Shown here: in pieces, positions 5,588 to 51,108 of the stretch
How the letters are laid out: the number at the start of each line of letters is the position of its first letter
Position numbering within the stretch: position 1 is the first letter of the stretch
NCBI RefSeq assembly: GCF_001905145.1
Contig: NZ_LWLB01000004.1
Coordinates: forward strand, 146,856-210,855
DNA length: 64,000 bases
Reading direction: 5' to 3'
Origin: Nocardiopsis sp. TSRI0078
Lineage (GTDB): Bacteria > Actinomycetota > Actinomycetes > Streptosporangiales > Streptosporangiaceae
Notes under the pieces: generated by a model
Told to the model about the DNA's origin: nothing
The model's database searches: none
The model's input: only the letters and a program-made list of their open reading frames with translations
Made by a program: the position numbers and the translations under genes

Positions 5588-6106
5588 TCAGCGCCACCCA
5601 CCACACTCGGCAAGCACCCGAGCAAAAACCTCTCTCCTTGGAATATTCCGCTCTATCTCCCCAAGCCGCTCCCTGAAGGAATTTTCGAGATCCACTCCCG
5701 GCCCGAGAAGCGCATTGTCTTTTTCCTGCCAGATGCGCTCCACCCCCTCCAAAGTGGTCTTTATGCCCCTGAACTCGGTGCGAGAAAACCCCCCACCAAG
5801 GTCGATGATGTCATCACACGTACGCCAGAAATCTGAATGCGCATGGGACATCCACTTTGCTCGAAATCGGGGCTCCTCCACCTCTGCCCCCGCAACATGC
5901 ATGACAAAACTAGCACCGTACGCAAGCACCCCCTCCCGAGTGCAGGCATCCTCTACAACCCCTTGAAGCCGCTTCCACTCCCTTATCTCAGAATACTTCT
6001 CATCGAATGTATCAAAAATTCCCACACGAGAGGAATTGACCATTTCATTCACTGCGCCAATAAACGGCGCGTCCGCCACTTCCAAAAAGGGCTTCAATCG
6101 CATCAT
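5588..6106 (-). CDS. Putative immunity protein for the adjacent RHS/deaminase toxin
   Basis: A 172-residue soluble, acidic/mixed protein directly downstream of the toxin gene on the same strand, 79 nt after its stop. I do not recognise the family. Position, size, lack of signal peptide and the local drop in GC (visibly near half AT, against about 70 % GC around) are the usual marks of an immunity gene that travels with a toxin tip. The ATG at 6106 is preceded by GGAG at an 8-nt spacing; the frame is open further upstream and a GTG near 6145 is an alternative. Aromatic pairs, such as the Trp-rich segment FWRTCDDIIDLGGG, suggest a compact fold. Function is inferred from context only. Confidence 0.6.
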   Translation of the reverse strand: MMRLKPFLEVADAPFIGAVNEMVNSSRVGIFDTFDEKYSEIREWKRLQGVVEDACTREGVLAYGASFVMHVAGAEVEEPRFRAKWMSHAHSDFWRTCDDIIDLGGGFSRTEFRGIKTTLEGVERIWQEKDNALLGPGVDLENSFRERLGEIERNIPRREVFARVLAECGGWR

Positions 6107-6185
6107 GGCCAACACTCCGAGAAAAGTCGTAGCGTCCACCACACCTCCAGGAAACGGGACTCCAGCAAAGCACCGAAAATATATT

Positions 6186-9100
6186 CTATCTTCTGAAGAC
6201 CACCCGCCACGGCGTGTTCCCACTCGGAGAAACACCCCTGCCCATACCGATGTTGCTTGGCGACATCCCTCTACCGACAGCCCCGTTGAAGCAGGCGGAA
6301 CACATCCGCGTCGACGAGGCCATGGCCTCAAGCACCTGCCCGGGTCGCAGGCTGTTCATGATGGTCTGTTCTGCGTGACCAACACCTGGCTTAAAAATTT
6401 CACCTGTACCGCTCAACGGAGAATTCCCTCCCCTCCAGGCATCAGGAATCCCCCTGAGGTTTGTCGCTACCCAGGTCTGTGTCTTTCCCCCTGAGCTCAC
6501 ACGGGCAACCGCGACCGTGGCGCTATCCTCCCCCAATGTTCCATACAGGTCGCGTGCCCTATCGAGGAGCTCGCCACCGCAGTTGTGGTTGAGGAGCTGG
6601 TTCTCCCCCGCCGCCACATGGTACGTGTGCAGGTCGGTGACGGTGAGGTTGCGAACCGTCGCGATCTGGGTGTCGACCTCGACGGCCGAGACCTGCACCC
6701 ACGTACCGGACGAGGTCTGCAACCACATTCCCGGTGCGAGGTCGACCGCGTCGACCCAGGCGTCCAGCTCCGGAACCCAGAACGGGTGACCATCAGTCGC
6801 CACGATCACGTCCCCGACTGCCACCGGGCCCGGGATCTCCGACGCGCTCTCCGAACCCGCCGACTCACCCTCCTCGGGGGCCTCCCGCTCGGTGGTCGGA
6901 TCCACCGTGATCTGAACCAGCGTCTTGGCGCCCTCGCCGACGATGGTCGCCGCCACCGTCCGCGCGCCCTGCTCACCGGTCTCCGGATCGGTCGCCACGA
7001 CCTCGTCGCCGACCTCGACGTCCTCGATCGCCTTGGTCGAACCGTCGGCCATCAGCACACCCGTACCGGGCACGAAGCTGTTCTTGCACCCGCCCCGCGC
7101 AGCGGACGTGGGCGCCGAGGACACGGGTGCGGGCCTGGGCGTGGTCGAGGTCGGCGTCGGCCGCGGCGGCTTCGGAGGAGGCGGCGGCTGCGGCGTCCGC
7201 GGCTTGGCTCCCCAGCGCGCCCACGAGGACGCACCCGAACGCGAACCGGCGCTGCTCGCCCAGGAGGAGAACCGGCTGCCGATCGCACCCGCGATACGTC
7301 CGCCGATCGCACCGCCCGCGGCGCCCAGCGCACCGCCGATCACGGTCGCGGTGGCCGCACCGCCCCACGACCAGTTGTTGCGCGGGGTGTCCATCCCGTA
7401 CTGGACCAGACCGCTGACCGCGCCGCCCAGGGCGGCGCAGCCGATCGCGCCCGCGCCACCGGTCAGCGCGGTGCAGCCCACGCCGACCGCGATGCCCACG
7501 CCGACCGAGACGATGGTGCTCTTGTTCTTCTTGACCCACTTCTTGGTGGATTTGTAGCCGGACTTGACGGCCTTGCCGACCTTGCTGGCCCCCGACTTGA
7601 CCTTGTCCCAGGCGTTGCTGAGCCACAGGCCGGTCGGGTCGGAGAAGGTCAGCGGGCTGTTGTTGGCGTAGGCGTAGCCGTTCATCTGCAGCGGGTCCGA
7701 CGGGTCCACGACCGGGTCCGCCGAGATGAACCGCCCCAGGGCCGCGTCGTACTCGCGCGCGCCGACCAGGGTCAGGCCGGTGGAGGCGTCCACGGTCTTG
7801 CCGAGGAAGCCCTTGTCGTCCGGCCAGGCTCCGCCGGAGGAGCCGCGCCCCTCGCCGAAGGGCGTCAGGTAGCGGCGCACCGACTGCTCGGAGTCGGCGT
7901 CCATGGCCACCTGACCGGTGCCCTGGTGGTCGGATGCCAGCAGGTCGAGCCGGTCGGGGGTGCGCACGGCCACCGTCTGCCCGCCGTGCTCGTAGTAGCG
8001 GGTGGCCTCCACCTCGCCGGTGAACCTGTCCGCGCGCAGCTCCATGCCCGGCAGGTAGAGGGTGTCGGCCTCCGGCGTCGAGTACATCAGGCGGTCGCCG
8101 TCGGCGGTGTAGGTGAAGGAGGTATCACCCGCGTCGGTGGAGACGGTGTCGAGCCTGCCCTCGGGCGTCCAGCTCAGCTCCTGGCGCTCACCCGCCAGTT
8201 CGCGCACCACCGTGTTGCCCGCCGCGTCGTAGTCGAAGACGGACAGGGTGTCGCCCTGCGGCGTCTGCTCGACCACCTCGCGGACGGTGTTGGGCTGGTC
8301 CTGCCCCTGGTCGGGGTAGGTGTAGTCGCGCACGGCGTCGTTGCCGGCCCCGGTGACGCCGTGCAGGGTCTCGCTGACCCGGTTGCCCGCGTCGTCGTAC
8401 TCGTAGGAGTGCCAGTAGGCGGCGGGGCCGCCCACCGAGGACGCGGTGGGTGCGGCGTCACAGCCCCCGGGGTCCTCGTGCGGCAGGGTCCAGGCCTCGG
8501 TGAGCTGCAGCAGCGGGTCGTAGGTGAAGCACTGCGTCTCGGTGGCTCCGCCCTCGGGGGAGTCGGTGACGGACAGGACGTTGCCCGCGTCGTCGTAGGT
8601 GTAGCCGGTGTCCAGGAGCGGCGCGGCGCCGCCCTGGCGGTCCACCCGGGTACCGAGCAGGCGCTGGGTGCCCTTCTCGAACTCGTTGGTGATCCACGCC
8701 TTGGGGCCGGACCCCGCGGCGAGCTCCATCTGGAGCACCTGGCCGAGCTGGTTGTACTCGGTGCGGGTGACGTAGGAGTCGTCACCGGAGAGCGATACGG
8801 GACGGCCGATCTCGTCGTACTCGATCACGGTCGACTCGGCGGACAGTCCGCCGGCGGCGGGCAGGCCCATGCCCTGGACGGTGCCGTCGACGTTGTAGCT
8901 GATCGAGAACTCGTAGTTGCCCGCCAGCGCCCCCTGGGAGTCGGGGACCCCGTAGAGGATGTTGGTGGGCCGGTCGAGCCGGTCCTGGCCCACGATCCCG
9001 ATCCGGAAGTCACCCTCGGGGGTATGCCGGGTCTGGATGAACAGCTGGCCCTTGAGGCGGGTGTCGTACTGGTAGCTGGTGAGCTTGGTGCCCTCCCCGG

Positions 9101-42170: not shown

Positions 42171-42761
42171 TCAGACGCCCCGGTGGGCGATCACGCGCTC
42201 GATGAACCCCAGCCCGGTCCGGTCGTGGTGGTCGACCACGAAGCCCGCGTCGACGGCGACGTGCCTCGGCAGCCGCCGGGGACGGTCCTTGCGCGCCTCC
42301 CGTGCCCGGAGGGGCCAGCGGGTGTACTCGACGTGGTCGACCAGCAGCAGGAGTCCGCCCGGCCGCAGGACCCGGTGCATCTCGGACAGGGCGCGGTACT
42401 GGTCGGGGATGGCGCACAGGGCGAGCGCGCACACCACGGTGTCGAACTCCCCGTCTCCGAAGGGCAGGTCCTGGGCGTCGCCCTCCCGGAGTCGGGCCCC
42501 CACCCCCAGTTCGGCGGCCCGTGCCCTGGCCCCCTCCAGCATGCCGGGGCTCAGGTCCACCCCGGTGACCTCCACGTCCTCCGGGTAGTACCGCAGGTTG
42601 TGGCCGGTGCCCACGGCGACCTCCAGGACCCTGCCGCGAGCCCTTCCGCACAGCCGGGCACGGGTGCCGCCGAGCACGAGCCGCTGCACCCGTTCCCCGC
42701 GGTCGTAGCCCCTCGCCATCCGGTTCCACTGCCCGCGCACCCGCTCGGTCCGCTCGTCCAT
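42171..42761 (-). CDS. Class I SAM-dependent methyltransferase, UbiE/PhcB-like
   Basis: A 196-residue methyltransferase: motif I VLEVAVGTGHNLRYYPEDVE, motif II TGVDLSPGMLEGARAR, then DLPFGDGEFDTVVCALALCA and VLRPGGLLLLVDHVEYTRWP. It resembles small-molecule or phospholipid methyltransferases. It diverges from the MerR gene with only 59 nt between, and MerR proteins usually control a divergent gene, so it may be part of that regulon. Confidence 0.85.
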   Translation of the reverse strand: MDERTERVRGQWNRMARGYDRGERVQRLVLGGTRARLCGRARGRVLEVAVGTGHNLRYYPEDVEVTGVDLSPGMLEGARARAAELGVGARLREGDAQDLPFGDGEFDTVVCALALCAIPDQYRALSEMHRVLRPGGLLLLVDHVEYTRWPLRAREARKDRPRRLPRHVAVDAGFVVDHHDRTGLGFIERVIAHRGV

Positions 42762-42785
42762 GACGCCCTCCCTCGCTGCCGCTCC

Positions 42786-42816
42786 TTGACCCTGGGCCCA
42801 GTCTGGAAGTTAATGT
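42786..42816 (+). promoter_or_regulatory. MerR-type promoter with 19-bp spacer
   Basis: TTGACC (42786-42791) and TAATGT (42811-42816) are separated by exactly 19 bp, the over-long spacing used by MerR-controlled promoters. The spacer starts with the palindrome CTGGGCCCAG (42792-42801). The merR ATG lies 4 nt after the -10 box, so the transcript would be leaderless or nearly so. Confidence 0.65.
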
Positions 42817-42820
42817 CCAC

Positions 42821-43276
42821 ATGAAGTCAAGAGAGTCGGAGCTGTCCATCGGCGAGCTGGCCGAACCGTTCGGGCTGGCCCCCCACGTCCTGCGGCACTG
42901 GGAGGCGGTGGGCGTGCTGGAGCCCGCCCGTCGCTCCGGAGGCCGGCGCCGCTACACGCCGGACCACCGGCTCCAGGTGGCTCTGGTGCTGCGCGCGCAG
43001 GAGGCCGGGTTCAGCCTGGCGCAGATCCGCGAGGTGGTCGGCGCACCGGACGGCGCGTCGCGACGCGCCCTCCTGGCCGAGCACCTGGCCAGGCTGGACG
43101 AGCGCCTGGAGCGGCTGCGCACCGCCCGCGAGCTGGTGGCGCACGTCGTGGACTGCGAGGCCGGGGACTTCCTGAAGTGCCCGACCATGAAGGCGATGCT
43201 GGAGGAGACGGCGCTGTCGGAGTGCGCTGCTATGCATGGACGCGCACGCCCTCCGAGCCTCCGGGAGTCGCCTTGA
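42821..43276 (+). CDS. MerR-family transcriptional regulator
   Basis: A 151-residue regulator: winged HTH (about 8-75) with LSIGELAEPFGLAPHVLRHW then EAVGVLEPARRSGGRRRYTP, followed by a coiled-coil dimerisation helix and a short tail with Cys at three positions (VDCEAG, LKCPTM, SECAAM) that could bind metal or sense redox. The ATG follows the 19-bp-spacer promoter. Its TGA stop overlaps the TTG start of the next gene by 4 nt, so it is translated in the same operon as the STM4015-like protein, unusual for a MerR regulator, which is normally encoded apart from its target. Confidence 0.85.
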   Translation: MKSRESELSIGELAEPFGLAPHVLRHWEAVGVLEPARRSGGRRRYTPDHRLQVALVLRAQEAGFSLAQIREVVGAPDGASRRALLAEHLARLDERLERLRTARELVAHVVDCEAGDFLKCPTMKAMLEETALSECAAMHGRARPPSLRESP

Positions 43277-44289
43277 CCTTCCACGAGCCCCTGTCCGAGT
43301 TCGCCGGACTGCCCGTCGCCGACTACATGGAGGCCCGCCTCCTGGAACGGTCGGGGCAGGACGCGGGCCCCGGTCGCCGGTCCCCCGAACTGGACGGCCT
43401 CGCCGACCCCGGTTCGGTGGCCTGGAGGCTGACCCGGTACGGCTGCGGCTACGACGAGGGCGACCAGTGGTCGGCCCTGGACTACCTCACCGGTTTCACC
43501 GGGTTCGTGTCCGACCCGGCCGCGGTCACCGCCGTCGTGGTCGGCAGCCTGGTGAACGCCTTCGCGGTGGAGTCCTCCGACGAGGTCCGCGACGCCTTCG
43601 TGGAGATCGTCCCCCGCCTGCCCGGCCTGCGCGCCCTCTTCTACACGGACCTGTCCTTCGAGGAGTGCGAGGCGTCGTGGATCAGGCACTCGGACCTCTC
43701 CTCGCTGGTGGCCGCCTACCCCGGACTGACCGGGTTCGCGGTACGCGGCACCGGCTACCTGAGCCTGGATGCGCTGGAGCACCCCGGGCTGCGCCGCCTC
43801 ACCCTCCAGGGCGGAGGGCTGCCCGGGAGGCTCGCGCGCCAGGTCGCCTCGGCCCGGCTGCCGGAGCTGGAGCGTCTGGAGCTGTGGCTGGGGGTGGAGG
43901 ACTACGGCGGGGACGCCGCGCCGCAGGACCTCGCGCCGGTACTGCGCGGCGAGGCGTTCCCCCGGCTGCGCTCGCTGGGCCTGCGCAACGCCGAGCACAC
44001 CGGCGCGTGGGTGCGGACGCTCGCCGAGGCCCCGGTCACCGCACGGCTGCACACGCTGGACCTGTCCCTGGGCACCCTGCGGGACGAGGACGTCGCGCCC
44101 CTGCTCGAAGCGCCGGCGTTCCGCGGCCTCCGGCGCCTGGACCTGCACCACCACTACCTGTCCGAGGAGGCCGCGGACGAGGTCCGCCGTGTGCTCACCG
44201 AAGCCGGGGTGGAGGTCGACCTGTCCGACCCGCAGGAGCCGGACACCTACGACGACGAGGTCCACTACTACACGGCGGTCTCCGAGTAG
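43273..44289 (+). CDS. STM4015-family leucine-rich-repeat-like protein, copy 1
   Basis: A 338-residue soluble protein. It opens FAGLPVADYM, shares with copy 2 the strings WLGVEDYGGD, PQDLAPVLRG, LRSLGLRNAEHTGAWVRTLA and LRRLDLHHHYLSEEAADEV, and ends ...YYTAVSE. The repeating L.xL.L spacing resembles a degenerate leucine-rich solenoid, matching my memory of the family named after Salmonella STM4015. Function is unknown; the fold suggests protein or peptide binding, perhaps substrate presentation to the radical SAM enzymes of the cluster. The TTG start at 43273 is chosen because it overlaps the merR stop (TTGA) and follows GGGAG at 5 nt. Confidence 0.75.
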   Translation: MTFHEPLSEFAGLPVADYMEARLLERSGQDAGPGRRSPELDGLADPGSVAWRLTRYGCGYDEGDQWSALDYLTGFTGFVSDPAAVTAVVVGSLVNAFAVESSDEVRDAFVEIVPRLPGLRALFYTDLSFEECEASWIRHSDLSSLVAAYPGLTGFAVRGTGYLSLDALEHPGLRRLTLQGGGLPGRLARQVASARLPELERLELWLGVEDYGGDAAPQDLAPVLRGEAFPRLRSLGLRNAEHTGAWVRTLAEAPVTARLHTLDLSLGTLRDEDVAPLLEAPAFRGLRRLDLHHHYLSEEAADEVRRVLTEAGVEVDLSDPQEPDTYDDEVHYYTAVSE

Positions 44290-44301
44290 CCCCTCCAGCG
44301 C

Positions 44302-44337
44302 CGGACATGTCGCTTCGGGCTGCTGGACATGTGTCCG
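44302..44337. repeat. Inverted/direct repeat between the two STM4015-like genes
   Basis: CGGACATG (44302-44309) and CATGTGTCCG (44328-44337) can form a hairpin, and GGACATGT also occurs twice in direct orientation. It lies in the only sizeable gap (74 nt) of the operon and could be an RNA stem that adjusts expression of the downstream genes, or an operator. Confidence 0.45.
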
Positions 44338-44363
44338 CCCGTCCCCCCAGGTAGGAACCCCTG

Positions 44364-45434
44364 ATGCCGAACACCCACCACGTCACCGAGTTCGCGGGCC
44401 TGCCCGTGGTCGAGTTCTCCTCGTGGGAGGCCATCCGCGGCGACTTCGAGCGCGCCATGCACAGTGCGCGCAACCAGAGGAGGCGCCGAGAGGAGTACCC
44501 GTCGTCGTACCGGCGGCTCTTCGACGCCATCGCCGCCCCCGGTTCAGTGGCCTGGCGGCTGAAGATGGAACCGCCGCCCTTCCACCTCGGCCCGCGCCAC
44601 GGCCAGAAGAAGCCGTTCGAGACCCTCACGGAGTACCTGGAGCGGTTCACCGACCTGGTGGACCGGAAGAGGGTCCACGCCCTCATCGTCGGCAACATCC
44701 CGGACGACGACTACCAGATGCGGGCCGAAGAGGCCGCGAGCGCGTTGGTCGGGTTCGCCCCGAAGCTGACCGGGCTGCGGTCGCTGTTCTTCGGCGAGAT
44801 CCTCCGGGAGGAGAACGAGATCTCCTGGATCAACCTGTGCGACCTGGCACCCCTGGTGAGCGCGCTTCCCCGGTTGGAGGAACTCGTCGTGCGCGGCGGC
44901 ACCGGCGACCTGGGCCTGCGCGTCCCCGAGCACCGGTCGCTGCGCAGCCTCACCGTCCAGAGCGGAGCGCTGCGCCCCGACGTCGTCCGCGACGTGTGCG
45001 CCTCCGGCCTGCCCGCGCTGGAGCACCTGGAGCTGTGGCTGGGGGCGGAGGACTACGGCGGGGACACCACGCCGCAGGACCTCGCGCCCCTCCTGTCCGG
45101 GAGGGCCTTCCCCGAGCTGCGGTCCCTGGGGCTGCGCAACGCGGAGTACGCCGGCACGTGGGTGCGGGCACTCGCCGAGTCCCCCGTCCTCCCCGGCCTG
45201 GACACCCTGGACCTGTCCCTGGGCATCCTGTGCGACAAGGACGCCAAGCCCCTCCTGGAGGCACCGGCCTTCCGGGGGCTGCGACGCCTGGACCTGCACC
45301 ACCACTTCCTGTCCGAGGACATGCGCGAACGCGTCCGCGAAGCGCTGCCCGGCGTGGAGGTCGACCTCTCCGACCCGCAGGAGCCGGACGTCTACGGCGA
45401 CAGGGTCTACTACTACACGGCGGTCTCCGAGTGA
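44364..45434 (+). CDS. STM4015-family leucine-rich-repeat-like protein, copy 2
   Basis: A 356-residue paralogue of the preceding gene, evidently a tandem duplicate: the same N-terminal phrase EFAGLPVVEF, ELWLGAEDYGGDTTPQDLAP, RSLGLRNAEYAGTWVRALAE, RRLDLHHHFLSED, and an identical final YYTAVSE. The N-terminal half differs more, with a basic segment RNQRRRREEYPSSYRRL absent from copy 1. Divergence suggests separate targets or roles. The final TGA overlaps the next gene's GTG. Confidence 0.75.
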   Translation: MPNTHHVTEFAGLPVVEFSSWEAIRGDFERAMHSARNQRRRREEYPSSYRRLFDAIAAPGSVAWRLKMEPPPFHLGPRHGQKKPFETLTEYLERFTDLVDRKRVHALIVGNIPDDDYQMRAEEAASALVGFAPKLTGLRSLFFGEILREENEISWINLCDLAPLVSALPRLEELVVRGGTGDLGLRVPEHRSLRSLTVQSGALRPDVVRDVCASGLPALEHLELWLGAEDYGGDTTPQDLAPLLSGRAFPELRSLGLRNAEYAGTWVRALAESPVLPGLDTLDLSLGILCDKDAKPLLEAPAFRGLRRLDLHHHFLSEDMRERVREALPGVEVDLSDPQEPDVYGDRVYYYTAVSE

Positions 45435-46546
45435 CCCGGCAGCGTCCGCTGGTCGTGGTGGGGGTCCCCGGCAACCGGCGCCTGGAGCTGTTCGGCGAGG
45501 CGGTCAGGGCCGCCGGCCTGCCCGGACCCGCGGTCGTGCCGTGGCGCGACCTGGCCGCCGGGCCGGTCGCGCTGCCCGAGGGCGCCCTGGTCCGGGTCGA
45601 CTCCCCCGGCGGCGACGTGGAGACCGAGCGCCTGCTGCGCGGCTGGAACCGCGGCCCCGACCTCTACCGGGCCGAGGGCACCGCCGACCAGCACGCCGGG
45701 TTCCGCTCGTCGCTGGGCCGGCTCGCGGAGGCGGTGGCCGCCACCCCCGGCGCGCACCTGCTCCAGGAACCCGCCGACCTGGTGGACATGTGCGACAAGA
45801 GGCGCTGCCACGTCCGCCTGGCGGCGGCCGGGGTCCCGGTGGCGCCCGCCCTGCCCGGGCCGGTCACGGACTACGCGTCGCTGCGCGCCGCGATGGACGC
45901 GCACCGCTGGCCCAGGGTGTTCGTCAAGCCCGCGCACGGATCCTCGGCCTCGGGGGTGGTGGCGCTGGCCACCGCGTCCGGCGGACGTGTCCGGGCGGTG
46001 ACCTCCGCCGACCTGGTCCGGGGCGCCGACGGGTCCGTGGAGCTGTACAACAGCCTGCGGCTGCGCACCTACACCCGGGAGGCGGAGGTCGCGGAGGTGG
46101 TGGACGCGCTCGCCCCCGACGGCCTGCACGTGGAGCGGTGGGTGCCCAAGGCGGGGTTCGGCGGCAAGACCGTGGACCTGCGCGTGGTGGTGGTCGCGGG
46201 CCGGGCCACGCACGTCGTGGTGCGCTCCTCGTCCTCGCCCATGACCAACCTGCACCTGGGCAACGCCCGGGGCGACCTGGCGGCCCTGCGGGAGTCGGTC
46301 GGCCCGCACCCCTGGGCGGAGGCGCTGGCCACCGCCGAGGCCGCCGCCGCGTGCTTTCCCCGCACCCTGCACGCCGGGGTGGACCTGCTGGCCCTGCCGG
46401 GGTGGCGTGAGTTCGCCGTGTGCGAGGTCAACGCCTTCGGCGACCTGATCCCCGGAGTGCTGCACGAGGGCCGCGACACCTACGCCGAGCAACTGCACGC
46501 CCTGGCCACCGGCCGCTTCCCCGTCCCCGAACCCGCGAGAGCATGA
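45431..46546 (+). CDS. STM4014-family ATP-grasp-like protein
   Basis: A 371-residue protein with an N-terminal Rossmann-like region (VVVGVPGNRRLELFGEAVR) and an ATP-grasp-like core: VFVKPAHGSSASGVVALA (ATP-binding Lys and Gly loop), GKTVDLRVVVVAGR and FAVCEVNAFGDLIPGVL (metal-binding Glu-Val-Asn). Such enzymes join a carboxylate to an amine or thiol through an acyl-phosphate. The cluster position matches STM4014 of Salmonella, whose activity is unknown. GTG start overlaps the upstream stop by 4 nt and its own stop overlaps the next ATG by 4 nt. Confidence 0.75.
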   Translation: MTRQRPLVVVGVPGNRRLELFGEAVRAAGLPGPAVVPWRDLAAGPVALPEGALVRVDSPGGDVETERLLRGWNRGPDLYRAEGTADQHAGFRSSLGRLAEAVAATPGAHLLQEPADLVDMCDKRRCHVRLAAAGVPVAPALPGPVTDYASLRAAMDAHRWPRVFVKPAHGSSASGVVALATASGGRVRAVTSADLVRGADGSVELYNSLRLRTYTREAEVAEVVDALAPDGLHVERWVPKAGFGGKTVDLRVVVVAGRATHVVVRSSSSPMTNLHLGNARGDLAALRESVGPHPWAEALATAEAAAACFPRTLHAGVDLLALPGWREFAVCEVNAFGDLIPGVLHEGRDTYAEQLHALATGRFPVPEPARA

Positions 46547-47403
46547 ACAGCACCGAACCCGACATGAACGCCGTGGTGGGCACGCACGACATCCTGCTGC
46601 TCACCCTGGACACCCTGCGGTACGACGTGGCCGCCGAACTGGCCGGAGCGGGCCGCACCCCCAACCTCGCCCGGCTGCTGCCGGGAGGGCGGTGGGAGCG
46701 CAGGCACGCCCCCGCGAGCTTCACCTACGCCTCCCACCTGGCGATGCTGGCCGGGTTCCTGCCCACGCCCGCCTCACCCGGACCGCACCCGCGCCTGTTC
46801 GCCGCCGCGTTCCCCGGCAGCGCGTCCACCGCGCCGGGCACCTGGACCTTCGACACCCCCGACCTGGCCTCGGGGCTGGCCCGGGCCGGCTACCACACGG
46901 CGTGCGTCGGGGGCACGGGCTTCTTCAACCGGCGTTCGGCGGTGGGCTCGGTCATCCCCGACATGTTCGCCGAGAGCCACTGGGAGGAGTCGTTCGGCGT
47001 GACCGACCCGCGCTCCTTCGAGAACCAGGTGGCGTGCGCGGCCCGGATCGCGAAAGCGCGCCCCGCCGACCAGCCCTTGTTCCTGCTGCTCAACGTGTCG
47101 GCGCTGCACCAGCCCAACTGGTTCCACCTGCCCGGGGCCACCGGCGAGGACGGCGACACCCGCGAGAGCCACGCCGCCGCCCTGGAGTACGTGGACCGGC
47201 ACCTGCCCCCGCTGCTGGCGGCGATGTCGGCCCGCCGCCCCTGCTTCGCGATCGTGTGCTCCGACCACGGGACCGCCTACGGGGAGGACGGCCACACCGG
47301 CCACCGCATCGGCCACGAGACCGTCTGGACGGTCCCCTACGCCCACGCGTTCCTGCCCCGGGGACGCACAGCACCCGCCGACGCCCAGGAGGCGACCGCG
47401 TGA
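46543..47403 (+). CDS. STM4013/SEN3800-family alkaline-phosphatase-superfamily hydrolase
   Basis: A 286-residue protein. The first metal-site residues are in LLTLDTLRYDV (Asp23 and nucleophile Thr24), and the second in VCSDHGTAYGEDGHTGHRIG (Asp-His and two downstream His), the sulfatase/phosphopentomutase arrangement. No signal peptide is present, so the reaction is cytoplasmic: hydrolysis or transfer of a phosphate or sulfate ester, or phosphonate chemistry. The family name comes from Salmonella STM4013. ATG at 46543 and GTG of the next gene both overlap neighbouring stops. Confidence 0.75.
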   Translation: MNSTEPDMNAVVGTHDILLLTLDTLRYDVAAELAGAGRTPNLARLLPGGRWERRHAPASFTYASHLAMLAGFLPTPASPGPHPRLFAAAFPGSASTAPGTWTFDTPDLASGLARAGYHTACVGGTGFFNRRSAVGSVIPDMFAESHWEESFGVTDPRSFENQVACAARIAKARPADQPLFLLLNVSALHQPNWFHLPGATGEDGDTRESHAAALEYVDRHLPPLLAAMSARRPCFAIVCSDHGTAYGEDGHTGHRIGHETVWTVPYAHAFLPRGRTAPADAQEATA

Positions 47404-48755
47404 CCGCAGCCCTCACCCCGCGCGCCGAACCGGTGCGTGCCGACTCCCCGTACCAGTCCTACGTCTACGCCTACCCGCACAAGAGCGCCTACCGGCCCTT
47501 CGAGGAGCGCCCCCCGCTCGCCGACCTGTGGCGCGGCGAGGCCGTCGACGCGCTGTCGCTGTACGCGCACATCCCCTTCTGCGAGATGCGCTGCGGGTTC
47601 TGCAACCTGTTCACCCGCTCCACTCCCCCGGCCGAGCAGGTCACCGCCTACCTGGACGCCCTGGAGCGGCAGGCGGAGGCGGTGTCCGGGGTCCTGCCGG
47701 AGGGCGCGCGGTTCGCGCGGGCCGCCCTGGGCGGGGGCACCCCCACGTACCTGACCGCCGAGGAGCTCACCCGGATCTACGACCTCACCGAGCGCGCGTT
47801 CGGGGTGGACCTGTCGCGGATCCCGGTGTCGGTGGAGACCTCCCCGGCCACGGCCACCCCCGACCGGCTGGCGGTGCTCGACGCGCGCGGCGCCACCAGG
47901 ATCAGCATGGGCGTGCAGAGCTTCGTCGACTCCGAGGCCCACGCGGCCGGGCGCCCGCAGCGGCGCGCCGAGGTGGACCGGGCGCTGGCCGCGATCCGCG
48001 AGCACGCCTCCGCCGGCCTCAACGTCGACCTCATCTACGGCATCGAGCGGCAGGACGCCCGCACCTGGGCGTACTCGCTGGACACCGCGCTGGAGTGGGC
48101 GCCGGAGGAGGTGTACCTGTACCCGCTGTACGTGCGTCCGCTCACCGGGTTGGGCCGCCGCGCCCGCGCGTGGGACGACCACCGGCTCAGCCTGTACCGG
48201 CGGGGCCGCGACCACCTGCTCGAACGCGGCTACACGCAGGTGTCCATGCGCATGTTCCGGCGTGCGGACGCCCCGGTCGCGGAGGAGCCCGACCACTGCT
48301 GCCAGACCGACGGCATGGTCGGACTGGGCTGCGGCGCACGGTCGTACACGGCCGGCGCGCACTACTCGTTCGACTACGCCGTGGGCGTGGGCGGGGTGCG
48401 GTCGATCATCGCCGACTACGTGGACCGCGACCGTGACGACTTCACCCGCGCGGAGGTGGGTTTTCGCATGGACCAGGACGAGCGGCGGCGCCGCCACCTG
48501 CTGCAGTCGCTGCTGCGGGCGGAGGGGGTCGACGCCACCGCCTACACCGACCGGTTCGGCCGCCACCCCCGCCAGGACTTCCCCGGGGTCCTCGCGGCCC
48601 TCGACGAGCGCGGATGGCTGGAGCCGAGGGCCGAGCCGCACCTGGTCCGGCTGACCCCGGAGGGGCTCGCGCACTCCGACGCGATCGGGCCGATGTTCTT
48701 CTCCGCCGGGGTGAGGGCGCTGATGGCCGACTACGAGGCCCGGTGGGCACGGTGA
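47400..48755 (+). CDS. STM4012-family radical SAM protein, HemN-like
   Basis: A 451-residue radical SAM enzyme. The 4Fe-4S site is CEMRCGFC (Cys61, 65, 68), followed by NLFTRSTPP, GGGTPTYL and GVQSFVDSEAH, and a C-terminal HemN-type domain (about 330-440). HemN-like enzymes include coproporphyrinogen dehydrogenases and methyl- or cyclopropane-forming relatives; nothing here fixes the substrate. A second Cys pair, DHCCQTDGMVGLGCGARS, may bind substrate or another cluster. Preceded and followed by 4-nt start/stop overlaps. Confidence 0.85.
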   Translation: MTAALTPRAEPVRADSPYQSYVYAYPHKSAYRPFEERPPLADLWRGEAVDALSLYAHIPFCEMRCGFCNLFTRSTPPAEQVTAYLDALERQAEAVSGVLPEGARFARAALGGGTPTYLTAEELTRIYDLTERAFGVDLSRIPVSVETSPATATPDRLAVLDARGATRISMGVQSFVDSEAHAAGRPQRRAEVDRALAAIREHASAGLNVDLIYGIERQDARTWAYSLDTALEWAPEEVYLYPLYVRPLTGLGRRARAWDDHRLSLYRRGRDHLLERGYTQVSMRMFRRADAPVAEEPDHCCQTDGMVGLGCGARSYTAGAHYSFDYAVGVGGVRSIIADYVDRDRDDFTRAEVGFRMDQDERRRRHLLQSLLRAEGVDATAYTDRFGRHPRQDFPGVLAALDERGWLEPRAEPHLVRLTPEGLAHSDAIGPMFFSAGVRALMADYEARWAR

Positions 48756-49714
48756 CACCGGCTCCCCCCGCCCTCGGCGCGACGCTCCCGCCGCACCTGA
48801 CCCTGCTCTACCGGGGTCCGCTGGCCAGCTGCGACTACGACTGCCCGTACTGCCCCTTCGCCAAGCGGCGCGACGGCCCCGGGACACTGCGCACCGACCG
48901 GGCCGCGCTGGAGCGGTTCACCGACTGGGTGGCCGGGCGGGAGGACGCGGACCCGGGCACGCGGTTCTCGGTGCTGTTCACCCCGTGGGGCGAGGGGCTG
49001 GTGCGGTCCTGGTACCGGACGGCGATCACCCGGCTCAGCCACCTGCCGCACGTGGACCGCGTGGCCATCCAGACCAACCTGAGCGGACGCGTGGGCTGGC
49101 TGGCCGGCTGCGACCTGTCCACCGCCGCGCTGTGGACCACCTACCACCCCGGGCAGGTCTCCCACGAGCGCTTCCTCGCCAAGGCGCGCGAGCTGGCCGG
49201 GATGGGAGTGCGGTTCAGCGTCGGCGTGGTCGGCGAACCCGAGCACCTGGAGGCGGCCCGCCGGATGCGCGCCGACCTGCCCGGGGAGGTGTACCTGTGG
49301 GTGAACGCCGCCGAGGGGCGGACCTACACCGACGCGGAGGCCGCCGAGTGGCAGGCCCTGGACCCGCACTTCCACTACAGCCGCCGCCCCCACCCCAGCC
49401 GGGGACTGCCCTGCCGTACCGGTGACAGTGTGCTGTCCGTGGACGGGGACGGGAACGTGCGCCGCTGCCACTTCGTGGACACGCCGCTGGGCAACCTCTA
49501 CGACGGTTCGTTCGCCGCCCGGCTCGGGCCGCGCGCGTGTCCGCTGACCAGCTGCGACTGCCACATCGGCTACGTCCACCTGGAATCGCTGGACCTGTAC
49601 GAGGTGTTCCGGGGCGGGGTGGTGGAACGGGTCCCCGCGGGCCCGGGGACCGCCCTCCCGCTCGTGTGGGGGCGGGCGAAAAGCACTTCAGAACGTCGCA
49701 GGCAACCGACATAA
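48752..49714 (+). CDS. STM4011-family radical SAM protein
   Basis: A 320-residue radical SAM enzyme with site CDYDCPYC (Cys27, 31, 34). The C-terminal part has Cys-rich RRCHFVDTPLGNLYDG, RACPLTSCDCHIGY, a SPASM/Twitch-like pattern that would hold one or two extra 4Fe-4S clusters, as in peptide-modifying radical SAM enzymes. GTG at 48752 overlaps the STM4012-like stop. Last gene of the coupled operon; the HAD gene begins 8 nt after its TAA. Confidence 0.8.
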   Translation: MTPAPPALGATLPPHLTLLYRGPLASCDYDCPYCPFAKRRDGPGTLRTDRAALERFTDWVAGREDADPGTRFSVLFTPWGEGLVRSWYRTAITRLSHLPHVDRVAIQTNLSGRVGWLAGCDLSTAALWTTYHPGQVSHERFLAKARELAGMGVRFSVGVVGEPEHLEAARRMRADLPGEVYLWVNAAEGRTYTDAEAAEWQALDPHFHYSRRPHPSRGLPCRTGDSVLSVDGDGNVRRCHFVDTPLGNLYDGSFAARLGPRACPLTSCDCHIGYVHLESLDLYEVFRGGVVERVPAGPGTALPLVWGRAKSTSERRRQPT

Positions 49715-49722: not shown

Positions 49723-50532
49723 ATGGTCTTTCCCCGGGTTATCGCCACCGATCTCGACGGCACCCTCCTTGGAAGGGAGGGTCTGGTCTCCGAACGCAAC
49801 CGGCGGGCCCTGGCCGCCGCCGCGGAGGCGGGCGTCAGGGTGGTCGTCTCCACCGCGCGCCCGCCCCGCACCACCCGGCACATCGTCGAGCAGTTCACCT
49901 GTGCCGCCGTGCTCTGCGGAAACGGCGCCCTCGCCCACGTGCCCGACTCCGACCCCCTGGTGCGCGCGATCGACCTGGAGACCGCCAGTGCGGTGGTCGA
50001 GAAGCTGCGCGGCGCGCTGGAGGGGATCGGCTTCGGCGTCGAGACCGGCACCGACTTCTTCCACGACGCCGGTTACCACCTGGAGCCGTGGGTGCCCCGC
50101 GACTGGGTGCGCGAGGTGCTGGAGACCCCCGACGCCCTGCTCTCGCGAGCCGTGCCGGTCGCCAAGCTGCTCGTGCGCTCCCGCGACATCCCGGTGCACG
50201 TACTGCACGAGGCCGCGGTGGAGACGGTCGGGCCACTGGCGGAGATCACCTACTCGGGCCGCCACAGCCTGCTGGAGCTGAGCGCCCTGGGGGTGAGCAA
50301 GGGCAGCACGCTCGCGATGGTCTGCGAGCAGTGGGGGGTCTCCGCCGAGGAGGTGGTGGCCTTCGGCGACATGCCCAACGACCTGTCCGCCCTGTCCTGG
50401 GCCGGTGCCGGGTACGCCATGGCCGACGGGCACCCGGACCTGCTCGACCCGGCGCTGGGGCTGCGCAGGGCCCCCGCCAGCCACGAGGACGGTGTGGCCA
50501 GGGTGGTCGAGCGACTGCTCGCCGACGGCTGA
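49723..50532 (+). CDS. HAD-superfamily hydrolase, Cof-type
   Basis: A 269-residue Mg-dependent phosphatase. HAD motifs: DLDGTLLGREG (nucleophile Asp and Asp+2), VVSTARP (motif II), KGSTLAMVCEQW (motif III Lys) and AFGDMPNDLSALSWAG (motif IV). The cap insert in the middle is the IIB type of Cof enzymes, which act on sugar phosphates or cofactors such as PLP and FMN. ATG at 49723. It may be co-transcribed with the STM operon, but its function there is not evident. Confidence 0.85.
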   Translation: MVFPRVIATDLDGTLLGREGLVSERNRRALAAAAEAGVRVVVSTARPPRTTRHIVEQFTCAAVLCGNGALAHVPDSDPLVRAIDLETASAVVEKLRGALEGIGFGVETGTDFFHDAGYHLEPWVPRDWVREVLETPDALLSRAVPVAKLLVRSRDIPVHVLHEAAVETVGPLAEITYSGRHSLLELSALGVSKGSTLAMVCEQWGVSAEEVVAFGDMPNDLSALSWAGAGYAMADGHPDLLDPALGLRRAPASHEDGVARVVERLLADG

Positions 50533-50607: not shown

Positions 50608-51108
50608 GTGCCGCACCCCACCCAGATCGTCTCGGCCCTGGCCGACCCCGCCCGTCTGGCGCTCTACGCCCGCGTGGTCGGCGCGGGCCCCGGCGGCGTG
50701 CCCGCCGAGGAGGTGCGCGGGGGCGGGGCCAGGGAGCGCAAACGCCTGGCCCGGCTGGCGGACGCCGGCCTGGTACGCGAGGACGGCGACCGCGTGGTGG
50801 CCGAGCCGGAGGTGTTCGCCGCCGCCCTGGAGGAGCAGCGCCCCGTCGACCGCGACCCGGTGGACTCCCTGTTCCACGACGGCCGGCTGACCTCCCTGCC
50901 CGTCAGGCGCGAGCTGCGGCACAGGGTCTTCGGGCGCGTCACCGAGCGGTTCTTCGCCCCCGGCGCGAAGTACACCGAGAAGCAGGTCAACGCCGCCCTC
51001 CTGAGCTGCTGCGACGACCCGTCGTCGATGCGCCGCCACCTCGTGGACGGGGGATACCTGGTCCGCAACGACGAGGGCAGCGTGTACCAGCGGGCCGCGG
51101 GTTCCTGA
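50608..51108 (+). CDS. DUF2087-domain protein with ArsR-like N-terminus
   Basis: A 166-residue protein. The N-terminal half resembles an ArsR-type helix-turn-helix (HPTQIVSALADPARLALYAR), and the C-terminal half is DUF2087 (FFAPGAKYTEKQVNAALLSC then CDDPSSMRRHLVDGGYLVR). DUF2087 is a small helical domain of unknown function often fused to regulators. GTG at 50608 has AGGAGGAG at 6 nt. Its stop codon lies inside the hairpin shared with the convergent GntR gene. Confidence 0.8.
   Translation: MPHPTQIVSALADPARLALYARVVGAGPGGVPAEEVRGGGARERKRLARLADAGLVREDGDRVVAEPEVFAAALEEQRPVDRDPVDSLFHDGRLTSLPVRRELRHRVFGRVTERFFAPGAKYTEKQVNAALLSCCDDPSSMRRHLVDGGYLVRNDEGSVYQRAAGS

Follow-up and report, generated by a model that had tools for sequence, protein, structure and literature searches.

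Within the window, a stretch of 64,000 nucleotides from Nocardiopsis sp. TSRI0078 (contig NZ_LWLB01000004.1), we identified an operon on the plus strand (positions 42,821 to 49,714, as read from the sequence) that comprises merR, two genes for leucine-rich repeat (LRR) proteins of the STM4015 family, and STM4014, STM4013, STM4012 and STM4011. We put at about even odds the proposal that this cassette encodes a carrier-protein pathway, in which the terminal Glu of the LRR protein is loaded by STM4014, the attached group is remodelled by the radical S-adenosylmethionine (SAM) enzymes STM4012 and STM4011, and the product is trimmed by STM4013. The wider proposal, to which we give a little less than even odds, is that the LRR proteins of about twelve phyla form a new class of covalent carriers, whose C-terminal Glu would be charged by a LysX-type ligase and on which the radical SAM pair and a phosphatase-fold enzyme would build a possibly sulfated or phosphorylated group. 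A previous sequence-only reading of the operon had suggested a dedicated pathway with the LRR proteins as substrate, carrier or scaffold; the sequence and fold evidence now favours carrier or substrate, by way of the C-terminal tail, with the modification itself a prediction.

When the sequence was re-read, the gene identities, strand and coordinates in that reading all proved exact, as did the 4-nt overlaps at five of the six junctions (TTGA at 43,273, GTGA at 45,431, ATGA at 46,543, and GTGA at 47,400 and 48,752); the sole loose junction is that between LRR1 and LRR2, with a gap of 74 nt. All six proteins from LRR1 through STM4011 pass the NCBIfam cut-offs, which bears out their naming and, for LRR1 and LRR2, their description as leucine-rich proteins. 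The gene order 4015-4014-4013-4012-4011 is also that of a Salmonella plasmid locus (L053).

The five families travel together. Among 197 genomes drawn evenly from the phylum of the window, each family scored over its cut-off in six, and these six were identical for all five (E limits 0.001 for STM4015 and STM4014, 1e-20 for STM4013 and STM4011, and 1e-80 for STM4012), a co-occurrence that is far beyond chance; the STM4014 model had weak matches below cut-off in 38 further genomes. An STM4013 alignment was then run against the 84,980 species genomes of a collection, and the best 80 of at least 582 confirmed stretches were kept as loci; together with 10 of 12 plasmid loci and the window, they make up a set of 91 loci. 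The two plasmid loci left out are L057, in which an STM4013-like gene lies in a different setting, and L064, which is unannotated and was set aside on the resemblance of its STM4013 match to that of L057 in the search (45% and 43%, residues 26-267). STM4013 is present in 91 of the 91 loci by construction, because the scan used it; with models built here from eight taxa, STM4012 was found in 85, STM4011 in 83, STM4014 in 80 and STM4015 in 79, and some of the misses fall at contig ends or past the flank. The commonest order among the loci is the one in the window. Judged by record titles, the cassette occurs in about twelve phyla: Actinomycetota, Pseudomonadota, Planctomycetota, Chloroflexota, Myxococcota, Cyanobacteriota, Armatimonadota, Acidobacteriota, Desulfobacterota, Bacteroidota, Deinococcota and Bacillota. 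It is therefore phylum-spanning and not specifically actinobacterial, as it had been labelled, whereas the co-conservation of the five families that had been expected is borne out by both the six genomes and the 91 loci. In some hosts the cassette is carried on plasmids.

The evidence that points to the LRR protein as the probable acceptor lies at its C-terminus. STM4015 proteins consist of a conserved LRR body followed by a hypervariable acidic linker and a conserved C-terminal end. Across 126 LRR proteins ending in Glu, identity between loci is 38% in the body, drops to 13% in the linker (positions -19 to -8) and rises to 55% in the tail; Asp and Glu make up 39% of the linker versus 16% of the whole protein. 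The terminal residue is Glu in 130 of 135 complete LRR open reading frames (ORFs), for which the consensus from -7 to -1 reads R, Y, V/I, A, V, S/G/A, E; position -6 is Tyr or Phe in 120 of the 135, with S, N and T also occurring, and position -2 varies among S, G, A, T and Y. A tail pattern is found in 85 of the 135 LRR ORFs versus none of 8166 other ORFs of the same loci, and elsewhere in the cassette a C-terminal bias is clear for STM4012 alone (52 Arg, 17 Lys). Terminal Glu also holds in further sets: 115 of 117 Nocardiopsis-type proteins of at least 300 residues end in it, the other two being named partial, and the Bacteroidota-type branch ends in P-x-x-T-E in 76 of 80 near-full-length proteins (330-366 residues; the remaining 40 of the 120 are shorter or longer). 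The tail of the Salmonella LRR protein is MNAMYTE. Alignment A3 combines 115 of 127 locus LRR proteins with the two from the window and seven further proteins; since none of the five LRR ORFs that lack the terminal Glu is included in A3 or in A5, the 'invariant E356' of these alignments is overstated. No Cys stands among the 90% columns of either STM4015 alignment; Ser-Trp and Arg-Gly are among the conserved residues of the family.

The proposed partner of this tail is STM4014, which is predicted to be an ATP-grasp ligase of the LysX/RimK fold, in agreement with its earlier description as ATP-grasp-like. The solved folds nearest to its structural model are ArgX-LysW, LysX-LysW, LysX and RimK; the top nine rows by Z are all LysX, ArgX or RimK, with the LysX type and RimK tied. 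In Foldseek, LysX and ArgX come first, followed by DcsG and PsnB, all ahead of RimK, with MdnB and MdnC further down. The putative ATP site lies near D318, E332 and N334. Against the NCBIfam rimK_fam model (TIGR00768), STM4014 scores 18.6 bits, below the cut-off of 143.4.

Gene arrangement links the LRR protein and the ligase as well. Twelve loci with both 4014 and 4015 have the cassette divided between the two strands; they come from Myxobacteria, Planctomycetes, Neomegalonema and a genome labelled Comamonas. Each of the 12 keeps 4015 and 4014 as same-strand neighbours, which pairs the LRR protein with the ligase, and keeps 4012 and 4011 adjacent; 4013 accompanies 4012-4011 in 11 loci and 4015-4014 in one. 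A distance comparison over 72 loci gave the largest partial correlation of 4015 with 4014 (0.31, versus 0.17, 0.04 and -0.23 for the others), evidence that is weak though agreeing, because locus pairs are not independent.

The remaining enzymes would act on the loaded group. As had been read from the sequence, two of them are radical SAM enzymes, one SPASM-like. STM4011 retains the CxxxCxxC triad (C27, C31, C34) and five additional invariant Cys (221, 239, 263, 268 and 270) in 80 of 80 aligned proteins; it also has the C-x12-G-x4-C half of a SPASM domain. The full SPASM pattern comprises seven Cys; STM4011 departs from it, with a Pfam SPASM score of 14.7 bits, under the cut-off of 21.5, and no solved relative was found by sequence at 0.01. 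STM4012 is HemN-like, with HemN (1olt) and the methyltransferase NocN (9p2u) as solved relatives. STM4013, rightly assigned to the alkaline phosphatase superfamily (Pfam Sulfatase match), has its best PDB matches among nucleotide pyrophosphatase/phosphodiesterases (NPP-type), followed by sulfatases; the residue at what we take, by comparison with the sulfatase motif, to be the nucleophile position is Thr54 in 89 of 89 aligned proteins. Such column counts refer to length-filtered sets, with 80 of 83 STM4011, 83 of 85 STM4012 and 89 of 92 STM4013 proteins found. Under the proposed mechanism, STM4014 would activate the terminal Glu of STM4015 and probably join an amine to it, as LysX does on LysW; STM4012 and STM4011 would then carry out radical chemistry on the attached group, and STM4013, at times with a HAD phosphatase, would take off a phosphate or nucleotide part, the later steps perhaps following in this order.

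Several observations weigh against the carrier proposal. Five of the 135 LRR ORFs lack the terminal Glu; by eye these look extended, truncated or doubtful. The structural model of LRR2 is of high confidence throughout its tail, with the last blocks at 97 and 92 (predicted local distance difference test, pLDDT), and the alignment with 2ra8 extends to residue 357 of that structure, the final Glu of the family falling at 354; in the resting state the tail is therefore not a loose arm, and its role may be structural. The ATP-grasp scores of STM4014 bunch, and in Foldseek a D-cycloserine synthetase (DcsG) and a graspetide ligase (PsnB) outrank RimK. Three loci (L069, L070 and L125) have STM4013 with none of the other four families in the DNA covered, and the place given to STM4013 in the chemistry is a guess. 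Finally, no release peptidase was recognised among the recurrent neighbour clusters listed, as judged by eye and with not all clusters family-searched. The group may accordingly remain attached, and the presence of several divergent LRR copies with a common tail would then be accounted for too; between a permanent group and one cut off as a small molecule, these copies slightly favour the former. The number of LRR copies per locus is one in 47 loci, two in 19, three in 5, four in 6, five in one and six in one.

The ordered tail, apparently resolved in 2ra8, is what would be expected if it were a structural cap or docking motif, with the LRR protein as a scaffold or regulator and with a small molecule, never tethered, as the product of STM4014 and the radical SAM enzymes. 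LRR proteins in general bind partners, and the several divergent copies per locus, up to six, also suit this explanation, which we regard as credible but unlikely: a cap has no obvious need for a terminal Glu that persists from phylum to phylum although the preceding linker is 13% identical, and the solved folds closest to STM4014 belong to enzymes that work on the C-termini of proteins. We consider it less probable still that the tail is the core peptide of a pathway akin to those of ribosomally synthesized and post-translationally modified peptides, in which STM4014 would make an intramolecular ester or amide crosslink like graspetide ligases and the radical SAM enzymes would act on residues of the tail, for example Tyr. 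Peptides are frequent substrates of SPASM-like radical SAM enzymes, an aromatic residue prevails at -6, and PsnB follows just behind LysX, ArgX and DcsG; but the tail has no conserved Ser, Thr or Lys acceptor, given the variety at -2 and the occurrence of S, N and T at -6, and LysX and ArgX outrank the graspetide ligases in Foldseek, in addition to holding, with RimK, the top nine places by Z.

The patchy distribution (six of 197 genomes), the carriage on plasmids, the LRR paralogues and the HipA-type toxin-antitoxin genes that the annotation places near the L054 and L061 cassettes would befit an anti-phage or conflict system, with sensing by the LRR proteins and a response by the enzymes. This seems very improbable to us, since PADLOC models match nothing save STM4012 once, at 20 bits, and since inspection by eye of the genes annotated around the cassette at plasmid loci showed no defence gene other than HipA. 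Least probable is that STM4011 is an anaerobic sulfatase-maturating enzyme that turns a residue of the sulfatase-like STM4013 into formylglycine. Although radical SAM/SPASM-like and sulfatase-fold genes do share the operon, and APS (adenosine 5'-phosphosulfate) kinase or ATP sulfurylase genes occur in five loci, a formylglycine sulfatase needs Cys or Ser where STM4013 has its unvarying Thr; we rejected this explanation on that ground, and it would also leave STM4014, STM4012 and STM4015 unexplained.

Among known systems, the carrier pathway proposed here most resembles that of the amino-group carrier proteins (AmCP), LysW/ArgW with LysX/ArgX. Both have a carrier with a C-terminal Glu behind acidic residues, seen in the two LRR proteins of the window as in the great majority of the family, and an ATP-grasp ligase of the same fold (for STM4014, a fold tied with RimK), and in both further enzymes act on the carrier-bound group, as is proposed for the cassette. 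The cassette has radical SAM and phosphatase-type enzymes, whereas the enzymes of the AmCP pathway are a kinase, a reductase, an aminotransferase and a deacetylase, and the amine is borne there on the gamma-carboxyl of the terminal Glu. Instead of a small zinc protein, the proposed carrier is an LRR solenoid about 300 residues long (338 and 356 in the window), whose tail reads RYxAVxE or PMITE in place of the AmCP motif EDWGE (PMC10433800). Having no zinc carrier, no EDWGE and a tail predicted to be ordered, the cassette is a variant and not a LysW/AmCP member; by analogy, it would work in the manner of an AmCP pathway, on a carrier of a new type. RimK, which acts on the C-terminus of ribosomal protein S6, itself ending in Glu, is likened to STM4014 by the tie in Z, but the cassette is a fixed set that includes two radical SAM enzymes as well as dedicated partner proteins, and STM4014 lies far under the RimK model cut-off. 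Pearlins (3-thiaglutamate and 3-thiahomoleucine, made with PEARL enzymes) are assembled on the C-terminal end of a carrier that is genetically encoded, in one case by way of a radical SAM step (PMC9303977); in contrast, the cassette has no recognisable PEARL, metalloprotease or short carrier peptide. The six window genes are plain members of the NCBIfam STM4011-STM4015 families, whose models name proteins without chemistry, and what is added here is the tail, the split modules and the associated HAD, APS-kinase and DUF6745 genes. For PDB 2ra8 (Q64V53_BACFR, from structural genomics), a difference is that a Bacteroides relative bears an N-terminal WGR domain. In the literature searched, which covers few subscription papers, we found no functional study of the cassette chemistry, DUF6745 or 2RA8/Q64V53, in line with the earlier statement that these families lack an assigned chemistry. 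Two papers mention single genes: PMC3844500 lists a sigma-54 site, with a ratio of 3.6 and in reverse orientation, for STM4013, and PMC2784778 has STM4015 in a table.

Table 1. Features of the STM4011-STM4015 cassette and its borders in the window (positions of the 64,000-nucleotide stretch)
Feature	Position	Strand	Basis
Possible merR promoter/operator: TTGACC, palindrome CTGGGCCCAG, TTAATG directly 5' of ATG	42785..42820	+	Sequence, inverted repeats; function putative
MerR-family regulator gene; TTGA overlap with LRR1	42821..43276	+	Pfam MerR_1, 66.5 bits
LRR1, STM4015 family, TTG start, 338 aa	43273..44289	+	NF038076, 329 bits (cut-off 275)
LRR1 tail YYTAVSE, final seven codons	44266..44286	+	Sequence; family tail statistics
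LRR2, STM4015 family, 356 aa	44364..45434	+	NF038076, 335 bits (cut-off 275); model pLDDT 94.3; top PDB match 2ra8
LRR2 tail YYTAVSE, final seven codons	45411..45431	+	Sequence; family tail statistics
STM4014, predicted LysX/RimK-fold ATP-grasp ligase	45431..46546	+	NF038074, 446 bits (cut-off 175); nearest solved folds
STM4013, alkaline-phosphatase-superfamily hydrolase, Thr at nucleophile position	46543..47403	+	NF038075, 413 bits (cut-off 250); Pfam Sulfatase
STM4012, HemN-like radical SAM enzyme	47400..48755	+	NF006067, 633 bits (cut-off 380); PDB HemN 1olt, NocN 9p2u
STM4011, radical SAM enzyme, SPASM-like C-terminal Cys	48752..49714	+	NF038073, 397 bits (cut-off 200); invariant Cys
HAD-IIB (Cof-type) phosphatase, possible sixth member	49723..50532	+	Pfam Hydrolase_3, 129 bits; starts 8 nt past STM4011 stop

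The operon end at 49,714 given previously is right for STM4011, but the Cof-type HAD-IIB gene that follows it lies outside that boundary (Table 1). Such a gene also stands 3' of STM4011 in the Salmonella locus, where the two overlap, and near STM4011 in L059 and L143, and it is fused to STM4011 in Bacteroides finegoldii (L061). As a universal sixth member the HAD-IIB gene was rejected: its own model finds it in 4 of the 91 loci, three of which seeded that model, and with the L061 fusion this makes it an associate. A HAD gene of another kind precedes STM4013 in 12 of the 91 loci and overlaps its start in 10. APS kinase, alone or fused to ATP sulfurylase, is found by Pfam in the operon at L089, L094, L105 and L114, and L100 has a similar APS-kinase-like ORF near the cassette (BLAST cluster, by eye). 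Since HAD phosphatases and APS kinases recur, phosphate or sulfate chemistry may accompany the pathway in several lineages, where these enzymes would have a part in it. At L100, from a Myxococcaceae genome, CysN-like and CysC-like ORFs (5888-7518; BLAST cluster, by eye) lie upstream of STM4013 and are divergent from it.

A DUF6745 gene and a small His-rich gene adjoin the cassette in 39 of the 91 loci (for example L054 3489-4814, L055 9980-11289 and L060 2174-3638), and DUF6745 occurs in 5 of the 197 genomes, three of them among the six with the cassette. The small partner has about 100 residues, with conserved GEVTGHxH and HEEH, and its terminal residue is Asp in 39 of 39; the DUF6745 protein ends in Y-x-P-x-x-[EQ]-[TA] in 39 of 39, and its N-terminus looks LRR-like by eye in the Deinococcus and Methylobacterium versions. 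The sequence-only reading mentioned neither the LRR tail nor the HAD, APS-kinase and DUF6745 associates. MerR was rejected as a conserved member: a 64% identical MerR lies near the Thermobifida locus L122 and a 35% partial match at L126, with none elsewhere at 1e-5.

Around the operon in the window, a class I methyltransferase gene (42,171-42,761, minus strand) is divergent from merR, and a gene for a DUF2087 protein (50,608-51,108, plus strand) comes after the HAD gene; nothing in the other 90 loci matches this protein at 1e-5. The same genome, Nocardiopsis-like by its nearest protein relatives, holds a third, orphan LRR copy (C34:123629) and a distant STM4013 paralogue (L052 1480-2382; C12:370254; 128.6 bits), the latter flanked by an S-adenosylmethionine-synthetase-like and an aminoacyl-tRNA-synthetase-like ORF, both named by eye. 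In the B. finegoldii plasmid cassette (L061, 4876-8893), which contains the STM4011-HAD-IIB fusion, STM4015 bears an N-terminal WGR domain, and STM4013 and STM4012 are broken through internal loss. An apparent STM4015-STM4014 gene fusion (P0256), in which an LRR cut short runs into mid-STM4014, was taken as a deletion or assembly join and was not used as evidence. Cyanobacterial LRR copies share an N-terminal motif, DAVLGG-x-x-PPP-x-x-x-VVLGG, with neighbouring WD40-like and other proteins; motifs of this type, found at L076, L081, L083, L090, L097, L102, L112 and L134, resemble a second tag on several protein types. On Streptomyces albidoflavus plasmids (L057, 6935-7729), the STM4013-like hydrolase lies beside a NUDIX gene and a transglutaminase-like gene annotated as lasso B2, with a Cas3 gene annotated nearby and the other cassette genes absent from the annotation.

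If the carrier proposal is true, five families that bear only Salmonella locus numbers become a testable pathway, and a repeat-solenoid protein joins the short list of covalent small-molecule carriers. A substrate site, at the final residues of a protein, would thereby be defined for two radical SAM families. The proposal further predicts that LRR proteins carry a mass-detectable modification in Streptomyces, Nocardiopsis, Deinococcus, Nostoc and Myxococcus, among others.

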